Shown: positions 37,029 to 56,397 of the stretch, one piece after another
How the letters are laid out: each line of letters starts with the position of its first letter
How positions within the stretch are numbered: position 1 is the first letter of the stretch
Source: an uncultured Bacteroidota bacterium
GTDB lineage: Bacteria > Bacteroidota > Bacteroidia > Bacteroidales > WCHB1-69
DNA length: 64,000 nt
Assembly (NCBI GenBank): GCA_902786595.1
Contig: CADADB010000012.1
Coordinates: 1 to 64,000, forward strand
Reading direction: 5' to 3'
Position numbers and translations under genes: made by a program
The notes under the pieces: model-generated
Database searches by the model: none
Told to the model about the DNA's origin: nothing
What the model saw: only the letters and a program-made list of their open reading frames with translations

Positions 37029-37030
37029 CT

Positions 37031-37789: not shown

Positions 37790-37821
37790 TGTGGAATGCA
37801 GAATGCAGAATATAATATAAG

Positions 37822-39201: not shown

Positions 39202-39256
39202 CTTAGACTTAAACTTAAACTTAAACTAAGACTTAAACTAAGACTTAGAATTAGAC
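39201..39256. repeat. Hexamer tract (ACTTAA/ACTAAG)n
   Basis: About nine ACTTAA/ACTAAG/ACTTAG 6-bp units directly after the AMP-ligase stop codon. Confidence 0.85.
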
Positions 39257-39299
39257 AGAACTTAAGATAATTTTGATATAAAAACAAGAATAGGCAACA

Positions 39300-39539: not shown

Positions 39540-40594
39540 TGGCACTTTGGGAAATCAAGAATGTGGCGGTGCGCGGTGTTACGGGCACTGTTCCGAACCA
39601 TGCGGTGAAGACCGCCGACTTCGATATCTTCACCCAAGAAGAAGCTGATATTTTCGACAACACCGTCGGCATCAAGAATCGTTACATCGGTTCTGATGAC
39701 ATTTGCACTTCCGACTTGTGTTTCGATGCAGCCGAACGTTTGCTGGCCGCGTTGGGGTGGGAGAAGGAGAGCATTGATGTGCTGGTGTTCGGGTCGGTGA
39801 CGGGTGACTACAAAACGCCCCCGACAGCGGGTATCCTGCAACATCGTTTGGGCTTGCCGACGAGCACTTTCGTGTTGGATATTCCGATGGGTTGTTGTGG
39901 CAGTATGTATGCCATCAACGTAGCGGGCAACCTGCTCAGTGCGGGTACGGTGAAACGTGCTTTGCTGTTGGTGGGAGATACAGCATTGCGCATGGGCTCG
40001 CTGAAGGACAAGAGCCGTGTGCCTCTGTTTGGTGACAGCGGCACAGCGATGGCGTTGGAGTACGATCCGACGGCAGAGGATATCGTCATAGAGTTCAACA
40101 CTCTCGGCTCGGGTTATGAGGCATTGATCACGCCTCATGGCGGGTTCCGTCATCCCATTACGGCGGAATCGTTTCTCGAAGAGGATTTCGGCAATGGTAT
40201 CATCCGTGCCCCGAAAGACACTCTTATCAGCGGCATGGATGTGTTTTCGTTCGCCATTTCAAGACCGCCTATCAGCATCAAGAAAATGATGGAGAAATAC
40301 GAATTGACGACAGAGAATGTGGACTATTTTCTTATCCATCAGGCCAACAAGCTGATTGTTGATCGTATCGTGAAGAAACTGAAGCTCCCGTTGGAGAAGA
40401 CTCCTTACGATTTGCAGGAGTTTGGCAACCTGGGAGGAGCTTCCGTGCCGATGCTGATGACATACAACCTCCGTGAGGAGTTGCAATCCCGTCCTTTGAC
40501 GTTGTTGTGCTCGTCGTTCGGCCTTGGGTTGACGTGGGGCACCATGATATTGAGGACGCAGAAGATGTTGGTGGAGGAAGTGGGGAAAATTTGA
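39539..40594 (+). CDS. 3-oxoacyl-ACP synthase III-like enzyme
   Basis: 351 residues with a thiolase fold. The FabH catalytic residues are visible: Cys in DIPMGCCGSMY near 118, His in YFLIHQANKL near 265 and Asn in FGNLGGASVP near 300. It would start or extend a short acyl chain on the coupled ACP. With the ligase and two reductases, the set could make a short 3-hydroxyacyl group for N- or O-acylation of a sugar (inference). Confidence 0.9.
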   Translation: MALWEIKNVAVRGVTGTVPNHAVKTADFDIFTQEEADIFDNTVGIKNRYIGSDDICTSDLCFDAAERLLAALGWEKESIDVLVFGSVTGDYKTPPTAGILQHRLGLPTSTFVLDIPMGCCGSMYAINVAGNLLSAGTVKRALLLVGDTALRMGSLKDKSRVPLFGDSGTAMALEYDPTAEDIVIEFNTLGSGYEALITPHGGFRHPITAESFLEEDFGNGIIRAPKDTLISGMDVFSFAISRPPISIKKMMEKYELTTENVDYFLIHQANKLIVDRIVKKLKLPLEKTPYDLQEFGNLGGASVPMLMTYNLREELQSRPLTLLCSSFGLGLTWGTMILRTQKMLVEEVGKI

Positions 40595-40655: not shown

Positions 40656-41744
40656 ATGAAATTTACAATTATCGGTTGTGGCAACTCTGGTCTTATCCAT
40701 GCAGCCAAATTATACGAAAAAGGACATGAAGTTGCATTGTTGAAGACGTCCAACACTAATGGCCGCTTTTTTGACATCATGCAAGAAGAAAACGGTTTTA
40801 AGGTGAAAGATGATACGGTTCAAGGTAATGGACATTCGTTTTTTGTTAAGCCCGTGTTGATAACTAGAAATGTGAAAGAAGCTGTGCAGTTTGCTGATGT
40901 TATCATGGTGACAACAACGACTCTTCAGCATGGGTTTGTCGCGGAACTTATTGCATCTTTTGTTCGTGATGGGCAGATAATAGTCCTTGTTCCCGGCTAT
41001 ATGGGCAGTCTGATCTTCAAAAAGTATATTAATAAGGATGTTACTTATTGTGAATGGGAAACTACAGCGTACAATGGGCGAATCGTTAATAACGAGTATG
41101 TCAGGATTTCGTTCTATAATCCGAGAAACGCCATATCGGTGCTTCCTGTAGCTAGAACACAAGAGGTTCTTGACACACTTTCACAGTGTTTCGACAACAC
41201 CAAATACACCCGTAAACATATCCTTGAATCGGCATTCCACAATCCTAATATGATTGTTCATCCGATCGGTATCTTGTTTTCCGCTTCGCGTATCGAATAC
41301 AGCAACGGAGAGTTTTGGATGTATCGTGAGGCATTCACGCCTTCCGTAGTCAATGTTATTAAAGCTTTTGATGTAGAGAAAAACAAGGTTTTGCAGGCCT
41401 TTGATTGTGAACCTCTGGATTATTTCGAAGCTGCCAAATGGCGCAATGAAGAGGATTTGAATATTGATGCCATGGCTGTGTTCCGCTCGTTTGCCGATTC
41501 TAGTAACAAGGGCCCTTCATTCATCAACCACCGCTATCTGCTTGAGGATGTTCCGATGGGGTTGGGGCTTTATATCTCTGTGGCCAAATTAGTGGGTGTT
41601 GACACCTCCATACAGGAGGGTATAGCCTCTCTCGCTTCGGCTTTGTTGAACAAGGACTTGAAGTCGAATGCAAGAACGATCCAATATCTGTTGGGGAAGA
41701 AGGATGTGACAGTTGAGGATATCAAAAAAGCTATTATCGAATAG
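40656..41744 (+). CDS. Opine (octopine/nopaline) dehydrogenase family protein
   Basis: 362 residues. The N-terminal Rossmann motif is FTIIGCGNSGLIHAAKLYE (residues 3-21). The C-terminal half matches the octopine dehydrogenase domain, with the conserved FHNPNMIVHPIG near 204 (catalytic His) and LEDVPMGLG near 295. Such enzymes reductively join an amino acid to an alpha-keto acid. N-(1-carboxyethyl) amino acids of this kind are known amide substituents of uronic acids in some O-antigens. The actual substrates here are unknown. Confidence 0.85.
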   Translation: MKFTIIGCGNSGLIHAAKLYEKGHEVALLKTSNTNGRFFDIMQEENGFKVKDDTVQGNGHSFFVKPVLITRNVKEAVQFADVIMVTTTTLQHGFVAELIASFVRDGQIIVLVPGYMGSLIFKKYINKDVTYCEWETTAYNGRIVNNEYVRISFYNPRNAISVLPVARTQEVLDTLSQCFDNTKYTRKHILESAFHNPNMIVHPIGILFSASRIEYSNGEFWMYREAFTPSVVNVIKAFDVEKNKVLQAFDCEPLDYFEAAKWRNEEDLNIDAMAVFRSFADSSNKGPSFINHRYLLEDVPMGLGLYISVAKLVGVDTSIQEGIASLASALLNKDLKSNARTIQYLLGKKDVTVEDIKKAIIE

Positions 41745-41752: not shown

Positions 41753-43225
41753 ATGGCAGAGAAAAATCTAAAGAAAAAAGCCGCCTCCGGGATGGTGTGG
41801 ACAGCGTTGCAGAAGTACTCAACGATGTTCATTTCTTTTGTTTCGGGTATTATTCTTGCTCGATTGCTGACGCCACATGACTATGGATGCATTGGTATGC
41901 TTGCTATCTTCATGGTGCTGGCAGAAGCCTTCATTGATGGTGGTTTTGGTTCCGCTTTGATCCAGAAAAAGCAACCTACTCAAGAGGACTATTCCACTAT
42001 TTTCTTTTGGAATCTTGGTATGGCGGTTTTGATGTATTCCATATTGTTTTTCTGTGCTCCTGCTATTGCGAGATTTTATGACATTCCGCTGTTATGCGAT
42101 GTGCTTCGTGTACAGGGTGTGATCCTTTTTATATATGCTTTTAACATCGTACAACGCAATCAACTGAAGAAAAAACTGAATTTTAAAGTATTATCAATTG
42201 TCACAATAACTACTTCGCTGATTGCATTAAGTGTTACCATTTTCATGGCTTATAAAGGTTTTGGCGTTTGGGCCTTGGTGGCGCAAAACATTATTACAGC
42301 TGCAATTCCAGCCATGGTGTTCTGGTTTTATATCAAATGGCGGCCCATCTGGACTTTTTCATGGAAATCGTTTAAAGAGTTGTTTAGTTTTGGGTTTTAT
42401 ATGTTTTTGACACATTTATTAAACAATTTTGGTACGCAAATACAAGGGCTATTGATAGGAAGGGTATATAACCCTTCCACAATGGGCTATTATTCAAAAG
42501 CATTAGGAACCGAAAGATTGGCGACAAGTAGTATTTCGTCTATTATTACCCAAGTCACATATCCATTATATGCAGCGGTTCAAGATGATAAGAATGCTAT
42601 GATAAATATCATAAAACGCCTGACCGTGACGATTGCTTATATCACTTTTCCTTTCGTTTTTATTTTGATTCTTACGGCAAAACCAATATTTGTGTTGTTG
42701 TATTCTGATAGATGGTTACAAAGCGTACCATATTTTCAAGTGCTTTGCTTAGCCGGTTTGGTGAACTGTTTGATTAATGTGAATATACAGACAATATCTG
42801 CAATAGGGAAAAGTAAGGTCATGTTTGTGTGGACGCTTATTAAAAGAACTATTGGAATAGCTCTGGTTGTAGTCGGATTGATGCTGTTTGGAATGAAAGG
42901 ATTATTATGTGGAGTGGTGTTGAATACATGGTTTTCGTTTTTTGTCAATATTGGTTTAGTGTCAAAACACATTGGATATAAATGGACACGACAATTAATG
43001 GATATTATGCCTGTTGGGGTGGCTTCTGTTATAGCTGCCGTAATCAGTTATGTTTCAGGCTATTTTCTTCATCTTGGATTGTATCCAGACGGAATAGTTA
43101 AGGCCTTGATTTTTCTTCTTATTTATTTCGGTTGGTCAATTCTATTTAAACCGGAAGCGTTTACTTATACTTTAACAAATATCCCAAGCCGATTTCAGTT
43201 TTGGAAAAGAAAAAAACATGAGTGA
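41753..43225 (+). CDS. Wzx-type polysaccharide flippase
   Basis: 490 residues with 12-14 hydrophobic helices and the polysaccharide-synthase signature at the start (GMVWTALQKYSTMFISFVSG) and FVSGIILARLLTPHDYG near 30. It should flip the lipid-linked repeat unit across the inner membrane. AT-rich composition. It overlaps the CapA-like gene by 8 nt. Confidence 0.92.
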   Translation: MAEKNLKKKAASGMVWTALQKYSTMFISFVSGIILARLLTPHDYGCIGMLAIFMVLAEAFIDGGFGSALIQKKQPTQEDYSTIFFWNLGMAVLMYSILFFCAPAIARFYDIPLLCDVLRVQGVILFIYAFNIVQRNQLKKKLNFKVLSIVTITTSLIALSVTIFMAYKGFGVWALVAQNIITAAIPAMVFWFYIKWRPIWTFSWKSFKELFSFGFYMFLTHLLNNFGTQIQGLLIGRVYNPSTMGYYSKALGTERLATSSISSIITQVTYPLYAAVQDDKNAMINIIKRLTVTIAYITFPFVFILILTAKPIFVLLYSDRWLQSVPYFQVLCLAGLVNCLINVNIQTISAIGKSKVMFVWTLIKRTIGIALVVVGLMLFGMKGLLCGVVLNTWFSFFVNIGLVSKHIGYKWTRQLMDIMPVGVASVIAAVISYVSGYFLHLGLYPDGIVKALIFLLIYFGWSILFKPEAFTYTLTNIPSRFQFWKRKKHE

Positions 43226-44369
43226 CATTATTAAACTTTTTTTTGCTGGTGACTTTTGCTCTAAGCCATCCACTTCTTTTATCACCCCAAGTGATGAGTT
43301 GAAAAGTGTTATAACATCGTGCGATTGCAGTATTGTTAATTTTGAGGTTCCTTTAAAACCAGATATAGAGCTCCCTCCAAGAAAGGATGAAAGGTTTTTT
43401 CAAAATGACGACACACCTGAATTTCTGCGCCATCTTGGTTTCGATTTGTTTTCAATAGCAAACAACCACGCCTTTGACTGGGGTGATGAAGGCTTCAAGA
43501 AAACAAAAGCCGCCTTAGGAGATGCTTCATTCGGCGCGGGAACATATGATGAAGCGTATCAGGTGAAAGTGGTTGAAATCAAAGGGAAGAAAATCGGTTT
43601 TCTGGCCTTGTCGTTTGCGGCTTATACATGGCCCTTGCTGGATACGGATGAACGGAAAGGGTTGGGTTGCGCCTATATCAATGACCTTAAAGTTAACCAC
43701 GTGATTGTGGAGGCGAAGAAAGAATTGGATTATTTGTTCGTGTTACCCCATGACGGAATCGAATATGTGGATGCACCAATGCCGGAAACCATTGCAAGAT
43801 ACAGGGATTTTATTGACTATGGTGCTGATGGCGTTTTTGGATCACATCCGCATTGTCCACAAGGCTGGGAAGATTATAAAGGAAAACCGATTTTTTATAG
43901 TTTAGGGAATTTCTTTTTCAATAGTAAGAAAGACACCTTGTATCGCGCTTGGAATCGTCCTCACTGGTATGAGGGAAGGTGTGTCGTGGTTACTATAGAG
44001 AATGGACAAATTACATACGAAGTGGTCAACACTCGCAATATAGACAACATTGCAATTGAAATAGACCATAGCGAGGAGTCAATGCGTCATAATGAATATG
44101 TTTGTGGATTGTTGACCAATAGGCAGGCATACCATGATTATATATACCCAATCATTCAAAAACAGGTTGACGGTTATTTTGGCAAGATGGAGATGTTGTT
44201 CCAACCCCAAACGGTTAAGCAAACTCTAAAGAGTTTAAAAAACTGTTTAGTTGGGAGAAATAAAAACAAAGTGGCCGTGGCAAATAGCAAAGACTTGTTG
44301 TATTTGTTCAGGAATGATTTGAGAAGAGCTCAAATACTGAGATTTTTAATGGGGAAAACAAAGAAATAA
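43218..44369 (+). CDS. CapA-family metallophosphatase-like protein
   Basis: 383 residues without a signal peptide. CapA/PgsA homologues support export or attachment of poly-gamma-glutamate capsule in Bacillus. The motifs FAGDFCSKPS near 9, IVNFEVPL near 39, SIANNHAFDWGDEG near 78, LPHDGIEY near 177 and GSHPHCPQGWE near 209 match the family. It overlaps the Wzx gene and precedes five ATP-grasp ligases, which fits a polymer with peptide or amino-acid chemistry. Soluble forms of unknown role also exist. Confidence 0.87.
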   Translation: MSDIIKLFFAGDFCSKPSTSFITPSDELKSVITSCDCSIVNFEVPLKPDIELPPRKDERFFQNDDTPEFLRHLGFDLFSIANNHAFDWGDEGFKKTKAALGDASFGAGTYDEAYQVKVVEIKGKKIGFLALSFAAYTWPLLDTDERKGLGCAYINDLKVNHVIVEAKKELDYLFVLPHDGIEYVDAPMPETIARYRDFIDYGADGVFGSHPHCPQGWEDYKGKPIFYSLGNFFFNSKKDTLYRAWNRPHWYEGRCVVVTIENGQITYEVVNTRNIDNIAIEIDHSEESMRHNEYVCGLLTNRQAYHDYIYPIIQKQVDGYFGKMEMLFQPQTVKQTLKSLKNCLVGRNKNKVAVANSKDLLYLFRNDLRRAQILRFLMGKTKK

Positions 44370-44383: not shown

Positions 44384-45523
44384 ATGGGACTTAAAACAAA
44401 AATTCAAAACAGTCTTTTCATCGAGAAGTATCTGAAGCAAGTCAATGAGAGTTATCGGAAACTACCTAATAAAGTTGAATTGACAAAAGAACAGGAGCGA
44501 GCTATACAAGACTATTGGCAAAGTTTGATAGGATTTGAGATCCCGACAGACTGGCACCGGTATTTTTATGCTCGGACGGGGCTGTTTTCAGTAAAATATA
44601 TTCCAACCAGTCTGTACCGTTTGGAATTAACAGGGCGTTTAAATCAACTGCCATGGTGCGTCCCTTTTTCGGATAAGAATCTGAATGACATTTTGCTGCC
44701 GGATATGAAGCAGCCGCACACACATTTGAAAAACAGAAATGGGTATTTTTTTGTTGAAAACAAAGCAGTAAGTTTGGAGGATGCTGTAAATTTATGTGCC
44801 AACATTGGGGATGTGATCATCAAACCCACGCTGTCTTCACATGGGGATGGTGTGAAAAAACTGCATGTCGAGAATGAGATTGTTGATGAGAAGGGCACAA
44901 CCCTTAAGGATTTGCTTGTGAAATATGGGAAAAACTATTTGATACAGGATTTGGTGAAACAACATCCCATCATGAATGCTCTGAATCCGGATTCTATAAA
45001 TACCATCAGGATTGTGACCTACCGTAAGGGAATGGAGGTGTTTGTGCTGTATGCCGCCATCCGGATAGGAAGGGAAGGACAGGCCATTGATAACGAGTCG
45101 GCGGGAGGCATTAGCACCAAAATCAATATGGACGGCACGTTATGCAAGTTTGCATACGGCGCCCCAGGACAGGATAAAATTGAGCTGACGGATTCGGGGG
45201 TCAAATTGGAAGGGTATCAGGTGCCTTCATTTGAAAAGGCGATAGCCCTGGTGAAAGAACAACATCTGAATTTGCCGTTCCAGGATTTGTTGGGATGGGA
45301 TATCTGTATTGACGAGGCGGGAGATCCGGTCATGTTGGAATGGAACACCACTCCGGAACTTAGCCAGTCGGCCGTGGGACCGGCGTTCGGGGATTATACC
45401 GAAATGGTGATTAAGGATGCCATGAGCAAGCCTAACTCACGCGTAGGGGATCCTTCATATCGCATGTTGGTGCCAGTTAATATTAAAACCGTAGTGAAAT
45501 ACTGTCGGCAAAAACTTTTTTGA
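44384..45523 (+). CDS. Sugar-transfer-associated ATP-grasp ligase A1
   Basis: 379 residues. It matches the ATP-grasp family ATPgrasp_ST: IIKPTLSSHGDGVKKL near 145 (nucleotide-binding loop), NPDSINTIRIVTYRKG near 203, IDNESAGGISTKI near 235, GWDICIDEAGDPVMLEWN near 305. The EWN pair provides metal ligands. These enzymes are predicted carboxylate-amine ligases of surface-polysaccharide loci. It is the most divergent of the three A-type copies (no KxHP-T-ILK variant of A2/A3), suggesting it is the oldest. Confidence 0.88.
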   Translation: MGLKTKIQNSLFIEKYLKQVNESYRKLPNKVELTKEQERAIQDYWQSLIGFEIPTDWHRYFYARTGLFSVKYIPTSLYRLELTGRLNQLPWCVPFSDKNLNDILLPDMKQPHTHLKNRNGYFFVENKAVSLEDAVNLCANIGDVIIKPTLSSHGDGVKKLHVENEIVDEKGTTLKDLLVKYGKNYLIQDLVKQHPIMNALNPDSINTIRIVTYRKGMEVFVLYAAIRIGREGQAIDNESAGGISTKINMDGTLCKFAYGAPGQDKIELTDSGVKLEGYQVPSFEKAIALVKEQHLNLPFQDLLGWDICIDEAGDPVMLEWNTTPELSQSAVGPAFGDYTEMVIKDAMSKPNSRVGDPSYRMLVPVNIKTVVKYCRQKLF

Positions 45524-45548
45524 TGTTTAAGCGATACTTTTTGTTACA

Positions 45549-46637
45549 ATGTTTAAGAAAATTAAAAAAATAATCGATCTTTATACAAAATATTGTGTCG
45601 GTCAAATACAGGAGCGGTATATCAAAAAATCGCTTAATGCATTAAGTGAAAGGAAAACACTTACCAAAGTCCAGAAACGGGAAATTCAAGAATTTTACAA
45701 GGGACTCATTGGAAAAAAGATTTCATTAACCAGTCACCAATATTTTTATTCCCGTTCCGGTGTTTACTCGAAAGAATATGTGCCGACGTATCTGTATCAC
45801 ACCGATATTATCGGTAAGGCGAATATGATGCCATATAGAAATGCCTTGGCTGATAAAAACATGTGTGACATTATTCTACCTGATGTCAAGCATCCTAAAA
45901 CCATTCTGAAAAACATGAATGGTTATTTCTATTTTGAAGGAGAACCAGTTTCTAAGGAAGATGCGGTTCGCCGTTGCCAGAATATGCACAATATGCTAAT
46001 CAAACCATCGCTTGACAAACATGGAACCGGCGTTAAAAGTCTGGAAGTGACAAATGGCGTCACAAATCATGATGGGGCCACAGTTGAACAGGTTTTTGAC
46101 AAGTATAAGAAAAACTTCCAAATTCAAGAGCGTCTGAAGCAACATGAAAGAATGAGCGCCTTGAACCCGACATCGGTTAACACCATCAGAATCTTAAGTT
46201 ACCGTTCTGGTATGGAAGTGTTAATTGTGTACGCAGTGGTGCGTATCGGAAGAAAAGGCCAGGTGATTGACAACCAAAGTGCAGGCGGTATGAGTGCCAA
46301 TATTGGCAAGGATGGCAGGCTGGAAAAGTATGCATACGGCGGATCTGTTGAAGACAAAATTACAGAAACGGATTCCGGAGTGGTATTGGAAGGTTATGAG
46401 ATTCCTTCGTATGACAAAGTGATAGAAACGGTGAAAAGATTGCATTTTAAAATGCCGTTTTTTGATTTGGTGGGATGGGATATGGCCGTTGACGATGTTG
46501 GCGACCCTGTCGTTTTGGAATGGAATGCTAATACAGGATTAAGTCAGTCTGCTTTTGGCCCCGGATTTGGAGAATACACGGAAAGGATTATTAAGGAGCT
46601 ATGGCCAAGATCAAATAATTTCAACAGTAACTGGTAA
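45549..46637 (+). CDS. Sugar-transfer-associated ATP-grasp ligase A2
   Basis: 362 residues. ATPgrasp_ST motifs: LIKPSLDKHGTGVKSLEV near 152, NPTSVNTIRILSYRSG near 208, IDNQSAGGMSANI near 241, GWDMAVDDVGDPVVLEWN near 309, LSQSAFGPGFGEYTE near the end. It is by eye closest to A3 at 47906 over its whole length. It is followed by the B-type copy B1, forming one A-B module. AT-rich. Confidence 0.87.
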   Translation: MFKKIKKIIDLYTKYCVGQIQERYIKKSLNALSERKTLTKVQKREIQEFYKGLIGKKISLTSHQYFYSRSGVYSKEYVPTYLYHTDIIGKANMMPYRNALADKNMCDIILPDVKHPKTILKNMNGYFYFEGEPVSKEDAVRRCQNMHNMLIKPSLDKHGTGVKSLEVTNGVTNHDGATVEQVFDKYKKNFQIQERLKQHERMSALNPTSVNTIRILSYRSGMEVLIVYAVVRIGRKGQVIDNQSAGGMSANIGKDGRLEKYAYGGSVEDKITETDSGVVLEGYEIPSYDKVIETVKRLHFKMPFFDLVGWDMAVDDVGDPVVLEWNANTGLSQSAFGPGFGEYTERIIKELWPRSNNFNSNW

Positions 46638-46720
46638 ATGGAAGTAAAGCAAGGTGTTGAGAATCTTGTTTGATGCTGTTTTTATGCCTGATGAAATTAA
46701 AAACAGAGTGTGTTGACATT

Positions 46721-47791
46721 ATGAAAATAAAAGAAATATTTTTTTCCAGCAGATTGTTTGAGTTCAGCATGGAGGTTATACTGTGGTTTCGACAAAGGTA
46801 TGAATCCCTTAAAGAGGCTAAACAACATTTTAAGACGGATAAGCCTGATGTTGGATCATTCGCTGATTTCAAAAGCGCCAACTGGAAACATAGGGTCACC
46901 TATTCGGAATACATGTATAGTTACGAGTACTGGAAGCTGAATGAAGAACAAAGGGATGAGTTTGTTTCCTCATCGGAAATGCGTTGCATCTATAGGAAAT
47001 TAAGTGATAGAAACGTGAGAGGGCTCTTTTTTGACAAAGTCAGATTCCTGAAAGAATACCATACGTTTATTCATAGGCAATGGTCTTTGGCTAAGGATTT
47101 GAGCAAGGAACAGTTTAAGTTGATGATCCAGCAACATGATTGCATTGCAAAGCCTGTTGACGGCACGCAGGGGAAAGGTGTCTTTAAGATTTGCGCAGAT
47201 GCAGTAGATGATTTGGATGCTTTGTATTCCAAATGCGTGAAAGAAGACTTGTTGATAGAAGAGTGTGTCCAAGCTTGTGACGAGATAGCGGCGTTCCATC
47301 CGAGTTCCTTGAATACAATTCGGGTTGTCACGTTTTCAAGCCAAGATAAATGTGTTGTTTTTGGTGCTTTGTTCCGCATGGGAGCGCATGGGAATGTAGT
47401 GGACAACACTCATGCAGGTGGTGTTTATGCCCCAGTCAATGTGGAGACGGGAACCATAGAGATAGATGCAATTGATGCTGAAAATCATCATTATTCAAAT
47501 CATCCAGACACAGGTAAACCAATCAAAGGATTTACCATTCCATATTGGGAGCAAATTCTCGAGACTTGTAAAGCCGCATCTTTGGCTGTCCCCAATGTTC
47601 GTTTTGCAGGCTGGGATATATGTGTGACAAATGATGGTCGGGTTGAACTGATTGAAGGAAATCATGCCCCTGATTTTGACGGAGGGATGCAAGCACCATT
47701 AAAGATAGGTGTAAAGAAAAAAGTGCAAGAAACGGTATTGGATGTTATGGGGGTGGATCCGCTTAAATATATCTCAATTTGGAAATATTAA
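46721..47791 (+). CDS. Sugar-transfer-associated ATP-grasp ligase B1
   Basis: 356 residues from ATG 46721 (MKIKEIFFSS); an upstream TTG at 46670 is possible. B-type motifs: CIAKPVDGTQGKGVFKI near 142, HPSSLNTIRVVTFSS near 192, VVDNTHAGGVYAPVN near 223, SNHPDTGKPIKGFTIPYWEQ near 253, GWDICVTNDGRVELIEGN near 292. The EGN replaces EWN of type A. It is closest to B2 at 49076, so A2-B1 and A3-B2 look like two copies of one module. Confidence 0.86.
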   Translation: MKIKEIFFSSRLFEFSMEVILWFRQRYESLKEAKQHFKTDKPDVGSFADFKSANWKHRVTYSEYMYSYEYWKLNEEQRDEFVSSSEMRCIYRKLSDRNVRGLFFDKVRFLKEYHTFIHRQWSLAKDLSKEQFKLMIQQHDCIAKPVDGTQGKGVFKICADAVDDLDALYSKCVKEDLLIEECVQACDEIAAFHPSSLNTIRVVTFSSQDKCVVFGALFRMGAHGNVVDNTHAGGVYAPVNVETGTIEIDAIDAENHHYSNHPDTGKPIKGFTIPYWEQILETCKAASLAVPNVRFAGWDICVTNDGRVELIEGNHAPDFDGGMQAPLKIGVKKKVQETVLDVMGVDPLKYISIWKY

Positions 47792-47793
47792 GG

Positions 47794-47889
47794 GTGAAAA
47801 AACAAAAAAAAGAATTAATAGCCTTTGAGCCAGACAAAACAGGAAATGTTTTGTCAGATTTCAACAAGCCAGTGATGGAACAATTATAG
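47794..47889 (+). CDS. Possible 31-residue peptide (uncertain)
   Basis: A GTG-started frame in the 114-nt gap between B1 and A3. It begins VKKQKKELIAFEPDK and ends NKPVMEQL before TAG. A hairpin GACAAAAC/GTTTTGTC (47833-47855) lies inside it. It could be a small peptide, a gene remnant or non-coding. No homology judgement is possible by eye and the ribosome-binding site is weak. Confidence 0.2.
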   Translation: MKKQKKELIAFEPDKTGNVLSDFNKPVMEQL

Positions 47890-47905
47890 AAACAAATCTG
47901 TTGTT

Positions 47906-49039
47906 ATGGGTATGAGTGTGAAAAAACTTAGTAATAGTTTAAAAGGATTGTTATACAATCTTTGTAAGAACGGATATGCGCTTGTTAATAGAATGGTGGA
48001 TAGTTTAAGAAAGAAAATTATCTGCTTGCATCTTGATGTTTTCATAAAAAAACAATATTTGAAACTGTCGGATAAAAAGAAGCTCACAAAGGAACAAAAA
48101 AGAGAAATTCAAAGCTTTTATAAAGATATTATTGGAAAAAAGATAAGATTGTATTCACACGAGTATTTTTATTCGCGTACAGGATTTTATTCAAAAAAGT
48201 ATGTCCCTAAAAGTTTACATGAGGTGGAAATGATACCGAAGGCAAACAAGATGTCTTATCGTGACGCGTACGCTGACAAAAACATGTTGGACACCCTACT
48301 GCCTAATGTGAAACACCCCCACACCATTCTAAAAAGAATGAACGGTTATTTTTACTATGAAAACAAACCTGTTTCAAAACAAGATGCTGTTATCTTATGC
48401 CAAAATATGGACCACGCTATCATAAAACCTGTCCTGAATCACAGTGGAGAAGGAATCAATGGATTGGAAGTGAAAGATGGGATAACGAATATTAACGGAT
48501 GGACTGTTGAACAACTTTTCGATCATTACGGCAAAGATTTTCAGATTCAAGAGAGACTTAAGCAACATGAAAAAATGAACCAGTTGAACGAGTCGTCGGT
48601 AAACACGATAAGGATAGTCACTTATCGTTCTGATATGGATATTTTGGTGATTTATTCGGTGGTTCGCATTGGGAGAAAGGGGGCCGTGATAGACAATCAA
48701 TGCGCTGGAGGTATCAGTGCGGTCATCGGCGAGGATGGCAAAATAGGAGGAACTGCTTTTGGCGGATTTACGGAAGACGGAATTCTTAAAACAGATTCCG
48801 GAACTGTATTGGATGGATTTGAAATCCCGTCGTATCAGGAGGCCATAGAGACCGTGAAACAGCTTCATTACCAACTGCCATTCTTCAACATGATCGGCTG
48901 GGATGTGGCTATTGATGAAGCAGGAGATCCTGTGATTATAGAATGGAATGCCTGCCCGGGATTGAGCCAGTCTGCATTCGGCCCTGGCTATGGGAAATAT
49001 ACGGAGAAAATTTTGCGGGAGATATGGCACAATAATTAA
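47906..49039 (+). CDS. Sugar-transfer-associated ATP-grasp ligase A3
   Basis: 377 residues, with a 30-residue N-terminal extension relative to A2. Motifs: IIKPVLNHSGEGINGLEV near 172, NESSVNTIRIVTYRSD near 228, IDNQCAGGISAVIG near 261, GWDVAIDEAGDPVIIEWN near 330, LSQSAFGPGYGKYTE near the end. It shares with A2 the blocks KREIQ-FYK, GKK-I-L-SH-YFYSR and KHP-TILK-MNGYF. AT-rich. It is followed after 36 nt by B2. Confidence 0.87.
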   Translation: MGMSVKKLSNSLKGLLYNLCKNGYALVNRMVDSLRKKIICLHLDVFIKKQYLKLSDKKKLTKEQKREIQSFYKDIIGKKIRLYSHEYFYSRTGFYSKKYVPKSLHEVEMIPKANKMSYRDAYADKNMLDTLLPNVKHPHTILKRMNGYFYYENKPVSKQDAVILCQNMDHAIIKPVLNHSGEGINGLEVKDGITNINGWTVEQLFDHYGKDFQIQERLKQHEKMNQLNESSVNTIRIVTYRSDMDILVIYSVVRIGRKGAVIDNQCAGGISAVIGEDGKIGGTAFGGFTEDGILKTDSGTVLDGFEIPSYQEAIETVKQLHYQLPFFNMIGWDVAIDEAGDPVIIEWNACPGLSQSAFGPGYGKYTEKILREIWHNN

Positions 49040-49075
49040 GTTTAGCAAAAATATTTGGACAATCATAAATGAATT

Positions 49076-50164
49076 ATGAGCAGTAAAGGGAAGATACATT
49101 CTTTCATGTTAGGCATAGTCTATTCGCCATGGGTCAATCAACTGATATCACGTGCGGGAGGCCAGAGACTATATGCCGAATTCCTTGTCCGACAAACAAA
49201 AAAACGTCTTTTGGCAGAGGCAGAAAAGGAATTTGAGGGAGGGGCATCGTCAGGAAGTTTTGACGATTATAAACAGGCTTTGGAAAAGCATTGGGTCTCG
49301 TATTTGGAGTATGCCGAAATGTATAAGTTCTATAATAAATCGGAAGAAGAACGGTCCGAGTATGTCTCTTTATTGAAAATGATTTATTTCTATAGGAGAT
49401 ATAATAATGGATCGGTATTGCCTGTCTTCCGGGATAAACAAAGATTCCTCAAGAAATATAGTAAGTATATCTATAGAAAGTGGCTGTTTGCCCCTGAGGC
49501 GACGTTTGAACAATTTACAGAATTGATAACCCGTTATGATTGTATTGTCAAGCCATGTGATGAAGCAAGAGGGAAAGGTGTTTTCAAGATATATAAAGAA
49601 GACGATTATCAAGATAAAAGGGCTCTGTATGAATCATGTGTGAAAAACCGAATGGTAGTGGAACAGTGTATCGAGTCTTGCGATGAACTTAAAGTATTTC
49701 ATCCGAAGAGTCTGAACACCCTACGTGTTGTCACTGTTGGGAGTAAGGAAAAAGCATGTGTGTTTTCAGGAGTGTTTAGAGTGGGGGTTGGTGACAGCGT
49801 GGTGGACAATACTCATGCAGGTGGTATCTCTGCTCAAATAAATCCCCATGACGGCACCATTGAGACGGATGGCGCGGATTCCAAGGGTAACAGGTATGTT
49901 TGTCATCCAGACAGCGGGATCCAATTCCAAGGGTACACCATACCCCAATGGAATGCGATTGTGGAAAACTGTTGTGAATTGGCAAAAGAGACGGATAATC
50001 CTATAACAGGTTGGGATGTGGTGATCAATAACCAAAGAGAAGTGGAATTTATTGAGGCAAATTTTGGTCCGGATTTGGACGTGATGCAGGTTCGCTATGG
50101 GCATGGCGTGAAAAAACAATTATTTGCTTTGATAAAGGAGTTTTGTGGCATAGAAATGAATTGA
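49076..50164 (+). CDS. Sugar-transfer-associated ATP-grasp ligase B2
   Basis: 362 residues. B-type motifs: CIVKPCDEARGKGVFKI near 155, HPKSLNTLRVVTVGS near 208, VVDNTHAGGISAQIN near 240, HPDSGIQFQGYTIPQWN near 278, GWDVVINNQREVEFIEAN near 312 (EAN in place of EGN). It shares with B1 an N-terminal helical region that lacks counterpart in A types (SFDDYKQA---KHWVSYLEY versus SFADFKSA---KHRVTYSEY). It is the last of five consecutive ATP-grasp genes. Confidence 0.86.
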   Translation: MSSKGKIHSFMLGIVYSPWVNQLISRAGGQRLYAEFLVRQTKKRLLAEAEKEFEGGASSGSFDDYKQALEKHWVSYLEYAEMYKFYNKSEEERSEYVSLLKMIYFYRRYNNGSVLPVFRDKQRFLKKYSKYIYRKWLFAPEATFEQFTELITRYDCIVKPCDEARGKGVFKIYKEDDYQDKRALYESCVKNRMVVEQCIESCDELKVFHPKSLNTLRVVTVGSKEKACVFSGVFRVGVGDSVVDNTHAGGISAQINPHDGTIETDGADSKGNRYVCHPDSGIQFQGYTIPQWNAIVENCCELAKETDNPITGWDVVINNQREVEFIEANFGPDLDVMQVRYGHGVKKQLFALIKEFCGIEMN

Positions 50165-50207: not shown

Positions 50208-50669
50208 ATGAGTAAAAACAGAGGCTTTTTTAGTGAAATGAGACGACGGCTTTGGTTTGTGACTGTCAGATTTACGAATTGGAAGCTGAAGAAAATATTC
50301 GGAATGGACATAGGCGAAAATGTTAGAATCGCTCGAAGTGCTCATTTGGATAAGAATATTAATCCAAAAGGAATACATATTGGTGATGGATGTCAAGTGT
50401 TGTTCGATTCTGTTATTTTGGCGCATGATGATTGTAGAAAATACAAGGCCGACACTGTGATTGGCAAGAATTGCATCATAGGTGTTCGTTCTGTCATTAT
50501 GCCTGGTGTTCATGTCGGGGATTCTTCTGTGGTGGCAGCGGGCAGTGTTGTGGTGAAAGATGTTCCAGCCAATAGCATGGTGGCCGGGAATCCGGCAAAA
50601 TTGATCAAAGAGGGTGTTGTGGTGGAAAATGGTCGAATCTTGGATGGCGGGCATAAAGTTTTGAAATGA
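50208..50669 (+). CDS. Hexapeptide-repeat acyltransferase
   Basis: 153 residues forming a left-handed beta-helix of the serine acetyltransferase/maltose acetyltransferase type. Repeats such as VRIARSAHLDKNI, IHIGDGCQVLFDSVILAHD and VIGKNCIIGVRSVIMPGVHV are visible, with the closing VKDVPANSMVAGNPAKLIK. It probably O- or N-acetylates a sugar or amino-acid substituent. The His in ILAHDD is the likely catalytic base. Confidence 0.85.
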   Translation: MSKNRGFFSEMRRRLWFVTVRFTNWKLKKIFGMDIGENVRIARSAHLDKNINPKGIHIGDGCQVLFDSVILAHDDCRKYKADTVIGKNCIIGVRSVIMPGVHVGDSSVVAAGSVVVKDVPANSMVAGNPAKLIKEGVVVENGRILDGGHKVLK

Positions 50670-50682
50670 GTGTTTTTTAATC

Positions 50683-51345
50683 ATGTATAGGAATCTCTTG
50701 AAACGTCTTTTCGATTTTTGCATATCACTCGTTGCCATGATATGCATCTCGCCGCTGCTGTTTGTGCTGATGCTCTGGTTGCATTTCGCCAACAAGGGGG
50801 CAGGTGTGTTTTTTACCCAAGACCGTGCAGGCAAGGATGCCAAGTTATTCAAGTGCATCAAATTCAAAACCATGACCGATGAGCGGTATCCAGACGGCCG
50901 TTTGTTGCCGGACGACAAACGGCTGACAAAAGTGGGCCGTTTCATCCGAGCGCTTTCCCTGGATGAGTTGCCGCAACTTTTTAATGTCTTGAAAGGAGAC
51001 ATGGCTTTGATCGGTCCGAGACCGCTCACCCCCGTGTATTTGGAACTTTATAACGAGGAGCAAGCCCGCCGAATGGAAGTGCGCCCTGGTATTACGGGGT
51101 GGGCACAAGTGAACGGACGGAACCACTGCAAACTCAGTAAGAAATTTGAACTGGATGTATGGTATGTAGACCACCTAACCTTAGGACTTGATATCAAAAT
51201 CCTTTGGATGACAGTGATTAACGTGATCAAGCGGGAAGATGTGGGCACAGGAAATGCCGATATGCAGGAAGTGGATGACTTGGGCTTTTTGCCAAAAGTG
51301 CGAGAGTATTACGCGAAAAAAAGACAACAACAAGATGCTGAGTGA
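50683..51345 (+). CDS. Phosphoglycosyl transferase (PglC/WbaP C-domain type)
   Basis: 220 residues, the minimal monotopic form. It transfers a sugar-1-phosphate to undecaprenyl phosphate to start the repeat unit. The N-terminal re-entrant hydrophobic helix (LFDFCISLVAMICISPLLFV), the FKTM motif near 66 (KCIKFKTMTDE), the LDELPQLFNVLKGDM region near 95 with the catalytic Asp-Glu dyad and SLIGPRPL-like LIGPRPLTP, and the ending PGITGWAQVNGRN are present. It is the only sugar-transferring enzyme I recognise in the locus. Confidence 0.93.
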   Translation: MYRNLLKRLFDFCISLVAMICISPLLFVLMLWLHFANKGAGVFFTQDRAGKDAKLFKCIKFKTMTDERYPDGRLLPDDKRLTKVGRFIRALSLDELPQLFNVLKGDMALIGPRPLTPVYLELYNEEQARRMEVRPGITGWAQVNGRNHCKLSKKFELDVWYVDHLTLGLDIKILWMTVINVIKREDVGTGNADMQEVDDLGFLPKVREYYAKKRQQQDAE

Positions 51346-52426
51346 AATAGGAAGTAATTTTTGGATCAACCCTAACGAGGAGCTGAAAGACTTGCCGCTG
51401 GGGACACCAGAACAGTTCGGCTGCAAAGGAAATGACTTTGTATGGCTGTCAACGGGCCGTTCGGCCATCAGCTTTGCCATTAAGACCATTGAAGAAAGGA
51501 ATCCGCAGTTGAAGAAATCGGCGGTACTTCCTCCATTTACTTGTCATACGGTGATTGAGCCGTTCTTGAATGCGGATTATGAGGTGTATCATTATCCTAT
51601 CAATGAAAAGCTGGAGACATCCGCCGACCTTATTCTCCAATGTGTGAAAGATCATGATGCTGCGGTCGTGTTGTTCCACAGATATTTTGGCTTCAACACG
51701 GTGAAGGGATCCGATAGTTTGTGCCGGGAACTTCGTGAGCAAAACAAATTCAGTATTGAAGATTGTACGCAATGTCTATATGATGGAAAAAACAAGTCGG
51801 ATGCTGATTTTTTTGTGGGCAGCATCCGTAAATGGCAGGGTACCCCTGATGGAGGTTTTGCAGTGTGTCGCGAGGGTGAGTTCCAAGATAAACCGAAGCA
51901 GCCTGATACCCCTTTGGAACAGGCAAAAATAAAAGCTTCGTATGCCAAATACAAGTATCTGTTTGATCATGAAGGGGAGAAGCCGGCGTTCCTTCAACTA
52001 TACCGTGAGGCTGAGGATATTTTGATAGCTCAAGATGGTTTTCGTAGCATAAGCCCAACCTCTCAGAAGATGCAAAGCAATTTGGATGTCTGTTTTCTCC
52101 AGAATCGCAGAAGGGAGAATTTTCAGATTCTGCTTTTGGGACTGGCCGATTTTCAGGATGTCCGTCCTATGTTTGACAGATTAAATGCAGACATTGTTCC
52201 GCTTTATTTCCCGATATTGACAAAAGACAGGGCGGCTTTACAGGCACATCTGGTGCAGCATGCTATCTATGCTCCTGTCGTATGGCCCAAAGCGGAGTGT
52301 TTGGGCGAAGTCTGCAAAGAAGCTGAATATTTGTACCAACACCTTCTTTGCATCCCGATAGACCAGCGTTATGATAAGGATGACATGAACCGTGTTCTGG
52401 AAACCATAAACCAGTTCTGTAAATGA
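51335..52426 (+). CDS. PLP-fold aminotransferase-like protein (DegT-related), copy 1
   Basis: 363 residues from ATG 51335, overlapping the phosphoglycosyl transferase by 11 nt. Aminotransferase-like features are STGRSAISFAIKTIE near 38, IEDCTQCL near 144 (PLP-binding acid) and SIRKWQGTPDGGFAV near 163 (candidate Schiff-base lysine). It is a paralogue of the gene at 60024 (compare SPRKYVGVPDGG; both end near PIDQRY). The reaction is not known. The following ATP-grasp gene overlaps by 4 nt, so they are probably partners. Confidence 0.7.
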   Translation: MLSEIGSNFWINPNEELKDLPLGTPEQFGCKGNDFVWLSTGRSAISFAIKTIEERNPQLKKSAVLPPFTCHTVIEPFLNADYEVYHYPINEKLETSADLILQCVKDHDAAVVLFHRYFGFNTVKGSDSLCRELREQNKFSIEDCTQCLYDGKNKSDADFFVGSIRKWQGTPDGGFAVCREGEFQDKPKQPDTPLEQAKIKASYAKYKYLFDHEGEKPAFLQLYREAEDILIAQDGFRSISPTSQKMQSNLDVCFLQNRRRENFQILLLGLADFQDVRPMFDRLNADIVPLYFPILTKDRAALQAHLVQHAIYAPVVWPKAECLGEVCKEAEYLYQHLLCIPIDQRYDKDDMNRVLETINQFCK

Positions 52427-53544
52427 TGAACAAGAAAATAGCTATTTTAGGAGCCAATTACCAGTATCTTTCCTTCTATAGACAGACGAAAGCCTTGGGA
52501 TATGAGATTTATTCTTTTGGAAGGGAAAGCGACGACCATATCGCTGCTGAAAAATATGCAGACCATTTCTATGATATCTCTTTTAGGGAACCGGAAAGGA
52601 TTCTTGAGATATGCAAGCATGAAGGTGTGCAAGGAGTTACCTCTTTTATTATAGAATCGGCTTTGCCGTATGTCTATTATATTTCAAGAGGACTGGGGGT
52701 CCCGTGTAATTCGCCGGAATGTGAAGCCTTAACGGAAAATAAGTTCACCATGCGCGAGCAGATGAAAAAGGAAGGCGTGACATGTCCGGATTACAAAGCC
52801 ATCAAATCCGTTGAAGAGGCGGATGGCATCCCCTTTCCGGTGATTGTCAAACCGTCGGACAGTGGCGGTAGCCGGGGTATTACACTAGTGACGGAAAAGA
52901 AAGATTTGCCCGCCGCTGTAGATAGAGCTTTTGACTGGTCTCCTACGCGAACGGCTCTTGTAGAACAGTTTATCGAAGGAAGGGAATTCAGCATTGAAGC
53001 CATCACCTATAAACGGAAGCATTATATTCTCCAGATTACGGACAAGGACACCACGGGAGCGCCTTATTTTGTGGAAATGGGGCATCACCAGCCTGCCAAT
53101 CTGAACCAGAAACAGTGGGAGGACATTTCGAATCTGACTCTGAAACTGCTCAATTCCCTTAAGGTGGAGTATGGTGCGTCGCATACCGAAATCAAAATGA
53201 ATAATGAAGGTGTGCCTTACGTCATAGAGATGGGTGCCCGTATGGGTGGAGGATACATCAACTCCGATATGGTAAGGCTTTCTACGGGGTATGATTTCGT
53301 GAAAGGAGTTTTGGAAATTGCAACGGGTACTTTCACTGAACCGGTTTTCACCTGCAGGAAATATGCAGGGGTGTACTTCCTTTGCGAAGAGACTAAAAAC
53401 AGAGTTCTGCCTTACATTGAGAACAAAGACAAATATCCTTTTGTCTATGATGCTGATATATGGGGGAAGATTCAAAAGGTGCAGTGCAACAGTGACAGGG
53501 GAGGGTATTTTATTTATCAATCAGATCATAAAATTGAGTTGTAA
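52423..53544 (+). CDS. CarB-like ATP-grasp ligase
   Basis: 373 residues. An N-terminal nucleotide/pre-ATP-grasp domain (KIAILGANYQYLSFYRQT) is followed by the ATP-grasp: PVIVKPSDSGGSRGITLV near 143, VEQFIEGREFSIEAI near 183 and VIEMGARMGGGYINSD near 266. It belongs to the broad carbamoyl-phosphate-synthase-like carboxylate-amine ligases and not to ATPgrasp_ST. It starts within the stop codon of the preceding PLP-fold gene (ATGA overlap). Confidence 0.87.
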   Translation: MMNKKIAILGANYQYLSFYRQTKALGYEIYSFGRESDDHIAAEKYADHFYDISFREPERILEICKHEGVQGVTSFIIESALPYVYYISRGLGVPCNSPECEALTENKFTMREQMKKEGVTCPDYKAIKSVEEADGIPFPVIVKPSDSGGSRGITLVTEKKDLPAAVDRAFDWSPTRTALVEQFIEGREFSIEAITYKRKHYILQITDKDTTGAPYFVEMGHHQPANLNQKQWEDISNLTLKLLNSLKVEYGASHTEIKMNNEGVPYVIEMGARMGGGYINSDMVRLSTGYDFVKGVLEIATGTFTEPVFTCRKYAGVYFLCEETKNRVLPYIENKDKYPFVYDADIWGKIQKVQCNSDRGGYFIYQSDHKIEL

Positions 53545-53545
53545 T

Positions 53546-54160
53546 ATGGAAAAAACGGTTTATTTCAGGGCGTTTGAAGAAGAAGATGCAAATCTTATCT
53601 ATCAATGGATGAACGATGACGAGCTTAAAAAACTGAGTACGGGATTAAACCGCCGAATTTGCAGGGAAGAAGCTGCGGAGTGGGTGAAGGCGCGGATGCG
53701 TCATAATCCATACCAGGTGTTTTGGGCAATATGTGCAAAGGATACGGATAAAATGATAGGTTATGCCTGCCTGAGTGATATACATTATATCAATAGCTCT
53801 GCGAATTTCAGTGGTGTGCTCATAGGCGACAAGAATTATCAGGATGGCATGGCATGGATTGAGACATATATATTCATTTATGAATATGCTTTTGAGCGGT
53901 TGAAACTGAATCGATTATATGGATCGGCAATTGATGAGCACAAGACAACGATGGCCATGAGAAAAGCGATGTTCAACACAACAGAGGGCGTGATGCGACA
54001 GGCAGCTTTCAAAAATGGAAGATATTACGATGTGTCAATGAGTTCCATCTTAAGAGATGAATATTTTGAACATAAAAATGCCGGGGAGTATGAGATCATG
54101 TCCGTTTTGAAACGACTGACGCGTATCTCAAGAGAGCAGAAGAATAAGCAAAGTCAATAA
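53546..54160 (+). CDS. GNAT N-acetyltransferase
   Basis: 204 residues from ATG 53546; longer upstream frames overlap the ATP-grasp gene. A RimJ/RimL-like GNAT fold is suggested by VYFRAFEEEDANLIYQWMND at the start, IGYACLSDIHYINSSANFSG near 72 and YAFERLKLNRLYGSAID near 113. It may acetylate an amino sugar or amino-acid substituent. It lies 1 nt after the ligase gene. Confidence 0.82.
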   Translation: MEKTVYFRAFEEEDANLIYQWMNDDELKKLSTGLNRRICREEAAEWVKARMRHNPYQVFWAICAKDTDKMIGYACLSDIHYINSSANFSGVLIGDKNYQDGMAWIETYIFIYEYAFERLKLNRLYGSAIDEHKTTMAMRKAMFNTTEGVMRQAAFKNGRYYDVSMSSILRDEYFEHKNAGEYEIMSVLKRLTRISREQKNKQSQ

Positions 54161-54169
54161 CATTCTGGT

Positions 54170-55333
54170 TTGATCAAACGTCTGTTACTCTCGATATTAT
54201 TGCTGGCGGTCACATTTGTTGCGGTAAGATGCCAGTCGTCAAAGCAATTTGATACTGTTCATGATGAAATCGAACACATCAGGCAGCAATATGGCAATTT
54301 AGGATTGACTGTGGTGGTGGTGAAGGAGGGTAAAATAGTGTATGCTGATGATTTCGGATACAATCCCGACAAAGAGAACCCTACACACGGAAATCCGATT
54401 CGAAAAGATGATCTGTTCTATATAGCTTCTATCTCAAAGACCTTCGTGGGGACTGCTATCATGCAGTTAGTGGAACAAGGAAAGCTGTCGTTGGATGATG
54501 ACGTGAATGGTTACCTTGATTTTAGTCTTAGGAATCCACAATTCCCAGATGTTCCCATTACGATTCGAATGCTTTTGTGTCATCGTTCAAGTCTGAGAAA
54601 GGGTGCTCCCTATGATGATTTTGACAAGGTTAATCCAGAAAAGTCAAGCGATGTGAGAGCCCTTTTTAATGACTATCCTCCTGGAGGGAAAGCTGATTAC
54701 AGTAATTTGGGCTTTGCGATTCTTGGGGCTGTCGTTGAAAAGGCGTCAGGGTTGAGGTATGATGTTTATGTGCAGAAAAACATATTAGCCCCGTTGCGTC
54801 TTTACGGCGGGTATGATGTTTCGAAATTGGACAGCACAAAATTCGTCAATTCGTGTCGGTATAATGCAAAGAAGGATTCCTTTGTGGTACAGAGGAAGGC
54901 ATTTGCTCGAAAAGCGGAGAAGATGAACCAGTATATACTTGGATATAGCACTACGGCTCTACGACCTGCGTCGGGGATGATCCTATCATCAACTGATCTG
55001 GCAAATTATATGATGATGCACATGGCGGATGGGAAAGGCAGGCATGGAAAGCGTGTGCTGAAAAAAAACAGTGAGAGACAAATGAGGGAAGGGCAAAACA
55101 AAACCGTGTATGGGTTGTCGTTTGTGCATTTTCTTAATGTAATACCAGACGAAGATTTGATAGGGATGAATGGTGCCGGTTATGGCACACACAGTGCTAT
55201 GTTTTTTAACCCAGACAGGAAATTCGGGTTTGTTGTGATTTGTAACGGGTGCAAATCCAAAACATACGCGGATAGTGGACTGAATGACGATGTGGTCAGA
55301 TTTTTGTATGATTATTTTATTGAAAAACAGTAA
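54170..55333 (+). CDS. Exported serine hydrolase, class C beta-lactamase family
   Basis: 387 residues from a TTG start, 9 nt after the GNAT gene. A signal sequence is seen (RLLLSILLLAVTFVAV). The catalytic SxxK motif is Ser87-Ile-Ser-Lys90 (ASISKTF), and the Tyr motif is YSNLG near 180. Homologues include D-aminopeptidases, esterases and DD-peptidases. Its presence in a polymer locus suggests periplasmic trimming of an ester- or amide-linked group (inference). Confidence 0.85.
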   Translation: MIKRLLLSILLLAVTFVAVRCQSSKQFDTVHDEIEHIRQQYGNLGLTVVVVKEGKIVYADDFGYNPDKENPTHGNPIRKDDLFYIASISKTFVGTAIMQLVEQGKLSLDDDVNGYLDFSLRNPQFPDVPITIRMLLCHRSSLRKGAPYDDFDKVNPEKSSDVRALFNDYPPGGKADYSNLGFAILGAVVEKASGLRYDVYVQKNILAPLRLYGGYDVSKLDSTKFVNSCRYNAKKDSFVVQRKAFARKAEKMNQYILGYSTTALRPASGMILSSTDLANYMMMHMADGKGRHGKRVLKKNSERQMREGQNKTVYGLSFVHFLNVIPDEDLIGMNGAGYGTHSAMFFNPDRKFGFVVICNGCKSKTYADSGLNDDVVRFLYDYFIEKQ

Positions 55334-55374
55334 ATAACAGAAACTGTTTTCGTGATAGAAATATAATAAAAACT

Positions 55375-56358: not shown

Positions 56359-56397
56359 GTAATAATACTTTTTCTAATTTGTAAAATTAAAATACCA

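Follow-up and report, generated by a model that had tools for sequence, protein, structure and literature searches.

The window analysed here is a stretch of 64,000 nucleotides, positions 1 to 64,000 of contig CADADB010000012.1 (assembly GCA_902786595.1), from an uncultured Bacteroidota bacterium of the Bacteroidales lineage WCHB1-69. At positions 44384-50164 it carries five intact genes of the ATP-grasp family PF14397 (ATPgrasp_ST), all on the plus strand and in the order A1-A2-B1-A3-B2 (Table 1), as judged from the list of open reading frames (ORFs) and from profile matches. All five score 124-176 bits against a cut-off of 31.4, which bears out an earlier sequence-only reading of this DNA as a row of five consecutive ATP-grasp ligases. 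B1 probably starts at the ATG at 46721 rather than at the TTG at 46670 that opens its ORF. Two further copies, B3 and A4 (C12:67959-69056 and 69087-70175; 149 and 153 bits), lie in the same operon 4-6 kb beyond the end of the window, giving the operon seven ATPgrasp_ST ligases. One more, on contig C10, completes the eight genes of this genome that exceed the PF14397 cut-off. None of the five array ligases matches PF14305 (TupA-like) at E 0.001, and the LAL_C2 ligase domain has no match anywhere in the genome. We know of no tested function for PF14397.

The nucleotide and metal motifs that had been spotted by eye are kept in all five copies. Residues K103, K152, G159, N211-T212-x-R214, D241, W310-D311, E324 and N326 (A2 numbering) occur in 43 of 43 aligned A-type rows, and the equivalent ATP and metal positions are present in all 25 aligned rows of B-type, C10-type and related ligases, their roles being assigned by analogy. 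With the predicted catalytic residues intact in every copy, inactive copies are ruled out for the five array ligases. Eight comparisons with nearest relatives, covering all seven operon ligases, gave pN/pS values of 0.13-0.31 with synonymous sites saturated; such low nonsynonymous divergence at saturated synonymous sites is expected of genes under selection.

The array comprises two subfamilies. A2 and A3 are 60% identical, A1 and A2 48%, A1 and A3 46%, and B1 and B2 40%, whereas A-type and B-type ligases share 19-24%, in agreement with the by-eye grouping of A2 with A3 and of B1 with B2. A1, A2, A3 and A4 form one subfamily (44-60% identical), of which A1 is a full member; B1 and B2 form the second, and B3 and the C10 copy stand apart (19-28%). 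A profile of A-type ligases nevertheless aligns with a profile of the B and C10 types over 276 columns (E 2.6e-44), with the same lysines, glycine, NTxR and WD...ExN. Outside the family, NCBIfam TIGR02291 (alpha-L-glutamate, RimK-type ligases) matches B1 at E 5.5e-10 and A2 at E 4.4e-5, weakly and far below its cut-off, and the B/C10 profile finds, among solved structures, alpha-L-glutamate ligases and tubulin polyglutamylases (best 7qys, weak at E 0.004, the GWDi...iEgN strand included). On this weak kinship, our best guess for the chemistry is that of an amino-acid ligase like RimK or the tubulin tyrosine ligases (TTL).

The array lies in a capsule-type (surface glycan) operon. A single plus-strand run spans 26616-78704 and holds about 48 genes: 43 of the 46 gaps among 47 listed genes are shorter than 100 bases, and a small carrier-protein gene inside one of the long gaps raises the number from 47. 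The genes of a Wzx/Wzy-type capsule operon of Bacteroidales are all represented, namely a NusG/UpxY-like gene, Wzc, an initiating transferase, Wzx and a polymerase-like membrane protein, for which the candidates are 34760 (by eye, no Pfam match) and an EpsG protein at C12:71220. Ten ATP-grasp genes, seven ATPgrasp_ST and three of other families, stand here against two recognised ordinary glycosyltransferases (GT2 and GT4) and two initiating-type transferases.

ATPgrasp_ST genes had been thought usually to occur singly, and this has to be corrected. The 58 genomes surveyed from the family contain 41 PF14397 clusters: 23 consist of one gene, 13 of two and 3 of three, one is of five (the array) and one of six, so that 18 of the 41 hold at least two genes. 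Clusters were counted with gaps of up to 3 kb over 69 positions above the cut-off, excluding one hit in two pieces (G072) and hits below the cut-off. The six-gene cluster is found in another genome of the same genus, with its frames open. Since cluster sizes grade from one to six in these genomes, five in a row lies near the top of a continuous range and is not a lone oddity. The particular types are less widespread: B-type genes at E 1e-60 occur in 6 of 40 genomes of the genus and in one of 393 across the order (the present genome), and A2-like genes at E 1e-90 in 4 of the 393.

Opine-type dehydrogenases at the flippase and the putative product

The array was compared with 41 loci in named genomes and with further stretches from members of the genus and the family. 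At least 22 of the 41 loci are named for ruminant or horse gut samples; two are from Clostridia and the others, judged by title, from Bacteroidales or their kin. Flanks of the named loci reach up to 10 kb, the loci are related by descent, and their genes are mechanical ORFs clustered by BLAST, from which L064, L068, L069 and L070 had been dropped beforehand as copies. L052 and L094 are one contig, as are L048 and L093.

Two unrelated families of opine-type dehydrogenase share one position beside the flippase gene Wzx: the octopine or N-(1-carboxyethyl)amino-acid type (1bg6, E 1.3e-29) and the saccharopine-dehydrogenase/LKR-like type (AASS, E 2.8e-30). The products of both families are opines, amino acids that contain a secondary amine. 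A dehydrogenase of one or other kind lies directly upstream of Wzx in 23 of 36 Wzx stretches and within three genes of it in 29, and no stretch has both; L016, L013 and L064 are left out of this count, and for L058, one of the 36, the ligases lie in the neighbouring stretch L057. Likewise, 30 of 54 Wzx genes in the 58 genomes have an opine-type dehydrogenase within 1.5 kb; this neighbour is of the octopine kind in 12 genomes and of the saccharopine kind in 18, and no genome combines the two. Seven weak saccharopine-dehydrogenase-like hits (31-35% identity), none of which adjoins Wzx, were counted apart in this survey. On a Wzx tree of 47 rows (FastTree) the kind of dehydrogenase switches at least 10 times, where the kind was taken from anywhere in the stretch and the 4 of 51 rows without a dehydrogenase were not counted. 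This repeated swapping of two enzymes that both make opines suggests an opine as part of the exported unit. Furthermore, an opine-type dehydrogenase accompanies Wzx in 14 of 18 cases with a ligase within 10 kb, against 16 of 36 without (Fisher p 0.024). We regard the pairing of opine dehydrogenase and flippase as the most testable new result of this analysis.

A compact set of opine dehydrogenase, Wzx, TupA and two glycosyltransferase genes is conserved in L078, L079, L081, L082, L087, L088 and L089. A different arrangement occurs at L041, a locus of Petrimonas sp. IBARAKI, whose genome is complete: a saccharopine-dehydrogenase-like gene, Wzx, an acetyltransferase, a C10-type ligase, PGA_cap and an A-type ligase. 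Twenty stretches were picked for holding an opine-type dehydrogenase and yield no frequency.

The commonest non-ligase neighbour of the ST ligases is PGA_cap, with 49 adjacencies against a mean of 13.5 and a maximum of 24 in 1000 shuffles that ignore descent (again leaving out L016, L013 and L064). As to its activity, cleavage of a ligation product or removal of phosphate from it would be no more than guesses.

With somewhat better than even confidence, we propose that the seven ATPgrasp_ST ligases serially join opine-type and other unusual amino acids to a lipid-linked capsule unit before its export; the family, the intact residues, the one-strand run of genes, the non-sister relationships and the neighbourhood counts are observed, and from them we infer the reaction, the substrates, the order of bonds and the place of action. 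The Bac_transf enzyme would start the lipid-linked sugar, and a uronic acid or amino sugar of the unit would be joined by the ATP-grasp ligases to an opine and to further unusual amino acids. Each RimK/TTL-like ligase would probably activate a carboxylate as acyl phosphate and couple it to an amine. A uronic acid is likely to provide the carboxylate, given the gene of the UDP-glucose/GDP-mannose dehydrogenase family in the operon, and the amines are likely to be the opine or amino sugars made by DegT enzymes. At least one building block would probably be an opine, a secondary-amine amino acid, supplied by the dehydrogenase beside the flippase. The ligases would differ in specificity, the set decorating or partly building the repeat unit, which fits the sensible suggestion of the sequence-only reading that the array performs several different ligations. 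The completed unit would be flipped by Wzx and then polymerised.

Several observations weigh against this proposal. Once Wzx is controlled for, the association between opine dehydrogenase and ligase is modest (p 0.024), and the rows are related by descent. Some pairs of opine dehydrogenase and Wzx are found in loci that lack ATPgrasp_ST and frequently have a TupA-type ATP-grasp, so that the opine may be a substrate of TupA instead of the ST ligases. Of 54 Wzx genes, 24 have no adjacent opine dehydrogenase, 4 of them near ligases, and on contig C20 of the present genome (L113) the set of Wzx, TupA and two glycosyltransferase genes comes without an adjacent dehydrogenase of this type. PGA_cap is matched in 41 of the 58 genomes and is frequent in the absence of ligases as well. 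Finally, the A-type profile reaches no solved ATP-grasp structure, its best match being a ribosomal protein at E 0.053. As for TupA itself, those operon genes that were scanned with Pfam gave no match; a PF14305 protein adjoins ST genes in some relatives.

The order of the ligases and the genes that accompany them bear on a bolder form of the proposal. C10-type genes precede A-type genes in 23 of 23 loci having both (22 contigs), and 8 of 10 B-type genes adjoin an A-type gene in ligase order, a count that omits L055, L064, L068, L069 and L070 as copies of other loci. The operon of the window is without a C10-type gene, the single copy of this genome being that on contig C10. The gene at 62255 opens a module of C-C lyase, fumarase, hydroxyacid dehydrogenase and MmgE-PrpD genes that runs on past the window (C12:63209-67968, or L011:1209-5968), with matches to PF15617, PF02826, PF03972 and PF05683 and with the fumarase in halves, one of them named by eye. 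This module probably supplies the glycan with an unusual acid or amino acid. Its first gene is found in 5 of 5 loci with an A3-type ligase against 1 of 20 other loci of the same tree group, and its C-C lyase gene in 5 of 5 against 2 of 20, by a hand count over the 25 loci of a 30-row tree group that is limited by the flanks. The co-occurrence of A3-type ligases and the 62255-type gene hints that ligase and substrate module travel together. It is conceivable, though in our judgement unlikely, that the product is a hybrid capsule with more amide than glycosidic bonds per repeat: a short sugar core would carry ordered opines and unusual amino acids, and their order would be encoded by which ligase subfamilies are present and how these are arranged (C10-type, A, then B with extras). 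Species would then write different 'sequences' by swapping ligases together with matching substrate modules, such as an A3-type ligase with the C-C lyase, fumarase and MmgE genes.

We consider it improbable that the ligases build a free or carrier-bound peptide-like polymer in the style of poly-gamma-glutamate, with the sugars secondary. The rank of PGA_cap as the leading non-ligase neighbour (49 adjacencies against 13.5 expected), the few glycosyltransferases beside ten ATP-grasp genes and a FemAB-like gene within the operon would suit such a product, and in the array, as in poly-gamma-glutamate capsules, a CapA-like PGA_cap protein adjoins the ligases. However, the flippase, the initiating sugar transferase, the Wzc-type protein and the nucleotide-sugar genes speak for a sugar unit linked to a lipid; sugar-capsule genes are present, whereas neither a CapB-type Mur ligase nor CapC was found among the operon genes scanned (27170 and 64844 lie outside the scan).

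Origin of the ligase set

Relationships among the ligases were read from a tree of 123 rows overall, which contains the 30-row group, and from two careful trees, one with 19 rows for the B side and one with 42 for the A side. Six of the seven operon ligases have a clearly nearer relative in another genome than within the operon. A1 is closest to L030_8756 (83-85% identity), A3 to L016_9872 (75-76%) and then to genes in L019, L015 and L014, B1 to L016_5325 (76%), and B2 to L015_8797 and L016_8737 (61-65%); past the window, A4 pairs in the tree with L030_9956 and B3 with L030_2534. Only A2, whose best relatives reach 62-65%, has no markedly closer relative outside the operon. Other operon genes have best relatives at 95% (the 62255 gene), 97% (KAS III) and 92% (the opine dehydrogenase and RmlB). 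Because the best relatives of the operon genes are scattered over several loci, we lean towards a mosaic origin, in which already diverged ligases were exchanged between capsule loci rather than copied in place as an A-B pair; we hold this view jointly with the proposal of serial ligation, and as firmly.

A mosaic would also suit the idea that only one or two of the ligases serve the present product, the others being passengers of capsule-locus recombination or alternatives, and most relatives have one to three ligases in the stretch covered. We judge this quite improbable, as the catalytic positions are kept in the five copies, pN/pS is low in all seven, and the six-gene array in the other genome of the genus is likewise kept with open frames.

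In the sequence-only reading, A2-B1 and A3-B2 looked like copies of a single A-B pair. Approximately unbiased (AU) tests reject both strict sister pairs, A2 with A3 (p 0.000972) and B1 with B2 (p 0.000114), which argues that no module was copied in this genome; the test by which that reading was to be refuted has thus gone against it. The looser clade of A2, A3 and their relatives is not rejected (p 0.33, or 0.58 with L014_4178 added); that of B1, B2 and their relatives has p 0.026, and 0.285 with L016_3055 added. An older A-B association or duplication may therefore lie behind the array. Most B-type genes adjoin an A-type gene, but the order of the pair is not constant: the counterparts of B2 and A3 in L015 and L016 stand B then A, opposite to the array, and the L016 relative of B1 does not adjoin an A-type gene, a pattern not predicted by simple copying of a module. 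Local duplication of one A-B module followed by divergence is thus very unlikely: A2-A3 (60%) and B1-B2 (40%) are the closest pairs in the array, A and B genes are often neighbours (8 of 10) and the looser clades partly survive testing, but the strict pairs fail (p 0.00097 and 0.00011), gene order is reversed in relatives, B1 and B2 are much more diverged than A2 and A3, and a single other locus, L016, contains distinct close relatives of B1, B2 and A3 (that of B2 in L015 is equally close).

Related systems

All seven operon copies match PF14397 within an operon of surface-polysaccharide type; the present operon differs by holding seven copies, of at least three subfamilies, together. In the open-licence literature, with most subscription papers outside the search, we found no paper under the ATPgrasp_ST name, none on the function of that family, none on such arrays and none on the pairing of opine dehydrogenase and flippase. 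Single ligases in such loci are already known: a polysaccharide cluster of Clostridium includes an 'ATP-grasp amino acyl ligase' (PMC4000134), and a Bacteroides capsule-type locus an ATP-grasp protein (PMC12118408). Among the papers found, the nearest tested precedent is Cj1438C, the TupA-like ATP-grasp domain at the C terminus of Cj1438 of Campylobacter jejuni, which amidates the C6 carboxylate of capsular glucuronic acid before the next sugar is added (PMC11800379). It too is an ATP-grasp amide ligase serving a capsule, but it is fused to a glycosyltransferase and uses serinol phosphate or ethanolamine phosphate as amines, not amino acids or opines.

The array ligases share weak profile kinship with the alpha-L-glutamate ligases and TTL-like (TTLL) enzymes, whereas they fall far under any equivalog cut-off and their context offers no protein substrate. 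By its family name alone we take the C-terminal domain of Cj1438 to be PF14305, a Pfam family other than that of the array. O-antigens with opine substituents, for example N-(1-carboxyethyl)lysine, occur in Providencia and others, and the gene content of the operon would be compatible with a uronic acid that bears an opine in amide linkage; no gene cluster for such O-antigens was found in the open-licence literature searched. Amino-acid substituents on capsules are known chemically, and little was found on their ligases in that literature. The locus belongs to a recurrent kind that is little described in the literature searched, of which the array is a rich example. Together with its relatives it offers a natural series in which the number of ligases runs from one to seven, two opine-making enzymes replace each other and the subfamilies keep a fixed order; by comparison within this series, ligase specificity could be read. 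The proposal of serial ligation predicts that a family of Bacteroidales bears opine-carrying surface glycans and, if true, would reveal a class of hybrid sugar-peptide polymers and provide a toolkit of amide ligases.

Further genes of the operon

Table 1. Features of the capsule-type operon within the window (positions of the window).
Feature	Positions	Strand	Description
Operon head	26616..34713	+	NusG/UpxY-like, Wza-like (by eye, 27170), Wzc-like, CpsB/CapC phosphatase, UDP-glucose/GDP-mannose dehydrogenase family, RmlA-like and RmlB-like (the last two named by eye from Pfam matches)
Acyl module	36285..40594	+	Two SDR reductases, AMP-binding ligase, carrier protein 39300-39536 (PP-binding, E 1.3e-5), KAS III
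Opine dehydrogenase	40656..41744	+	N-(1-carboxyethyl)amino-acid dehydrogenase type; PF02317, E 1.7e-31; solved relative 1bg6, E 1.3e-29; directly 5' of flippase
Wzx-type flippase	41753..43225	+	PF13440, E 1.2e-93
PGA_cap (CapA-like) protein	43218..44369	+	PF09587, E 4.2e-43
A1	44384..45523	+	A-type ATPgrasp_ST ligase; PF14397, E 2.2e-42; first ligase after opine dehydrogenase, Wzx and PGA_cap
A2	45549..46637	+	A-type ATPgrasp_ST ligase; PF14397, E 6e-36
B1	46721..47791	+	B-type ATPgrasp_ST ligase; PF14397, E 9.4e-52 on the longer ORF from 46670; start probable
A3	47906..49039	+	A-type ATPgrasp_ST ligase; PF14397, E 9.8e-39
B2	49076..50164	+	B-type ATPgrasp_ST ligase; PF14397, E 9.7e-50
Hexapeptide acetyltransferase and initiating sugar-phosphate transferase (Bac_transf)	50208..51345	+	Pfam matches
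Three pairs of PLP-type enzyme and ATP-grasp (other families)	51239..62258	+	51239/52423, 57710/58822, 60024/60999
298-aa protein, no assigned family	62255..63151	+	No Pfam or NCBIfam match; 94-95% identical to L016, L019, L014

A search 5' of the operon for an invertible promoter gave only one 12-base inverted repeat with arms 715 bases apart, which is not convincing. Upstream of the opine dehydrogenase, the acyl module forms a small acyl pathway within the capsule operon.

Downstream of the array, the three ATP-grasps paired with PLP-type enzymes are about 24% identical to one another, and two of their PLP partners 26%; the PLP-type calls are partly by eye (51239 has a weak DegT match, 60024 none). 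An ancient repeat of a two-gene unit is more plausible for these pairs than for the A-B pair. Between them lie a GNAT gene, a serine-hydrolase gene, the FemAB-like gene and another DegT gene. The hydrolase at 54170-55333 belongs to the beta-lactamase family PF00144, has by eye a lipoprotein-like start, and may act on the glycan as an esterase or amidase.

Past the window, the module opened by the 62255 gene is followed by B3, A4, GT2, EpsG, a fusion of nucleotidyltransferase and aminotransferase, a second opine dehydrogenase-like gene, LicD, GT4 and a WecA-like protein. The fusion, the second dehydrogenase-like gene and LicD occupy C12:72294-76051 (L011:10294-14051) and look like genes for the activation of a phospho-amine and its transfer to the glycan.

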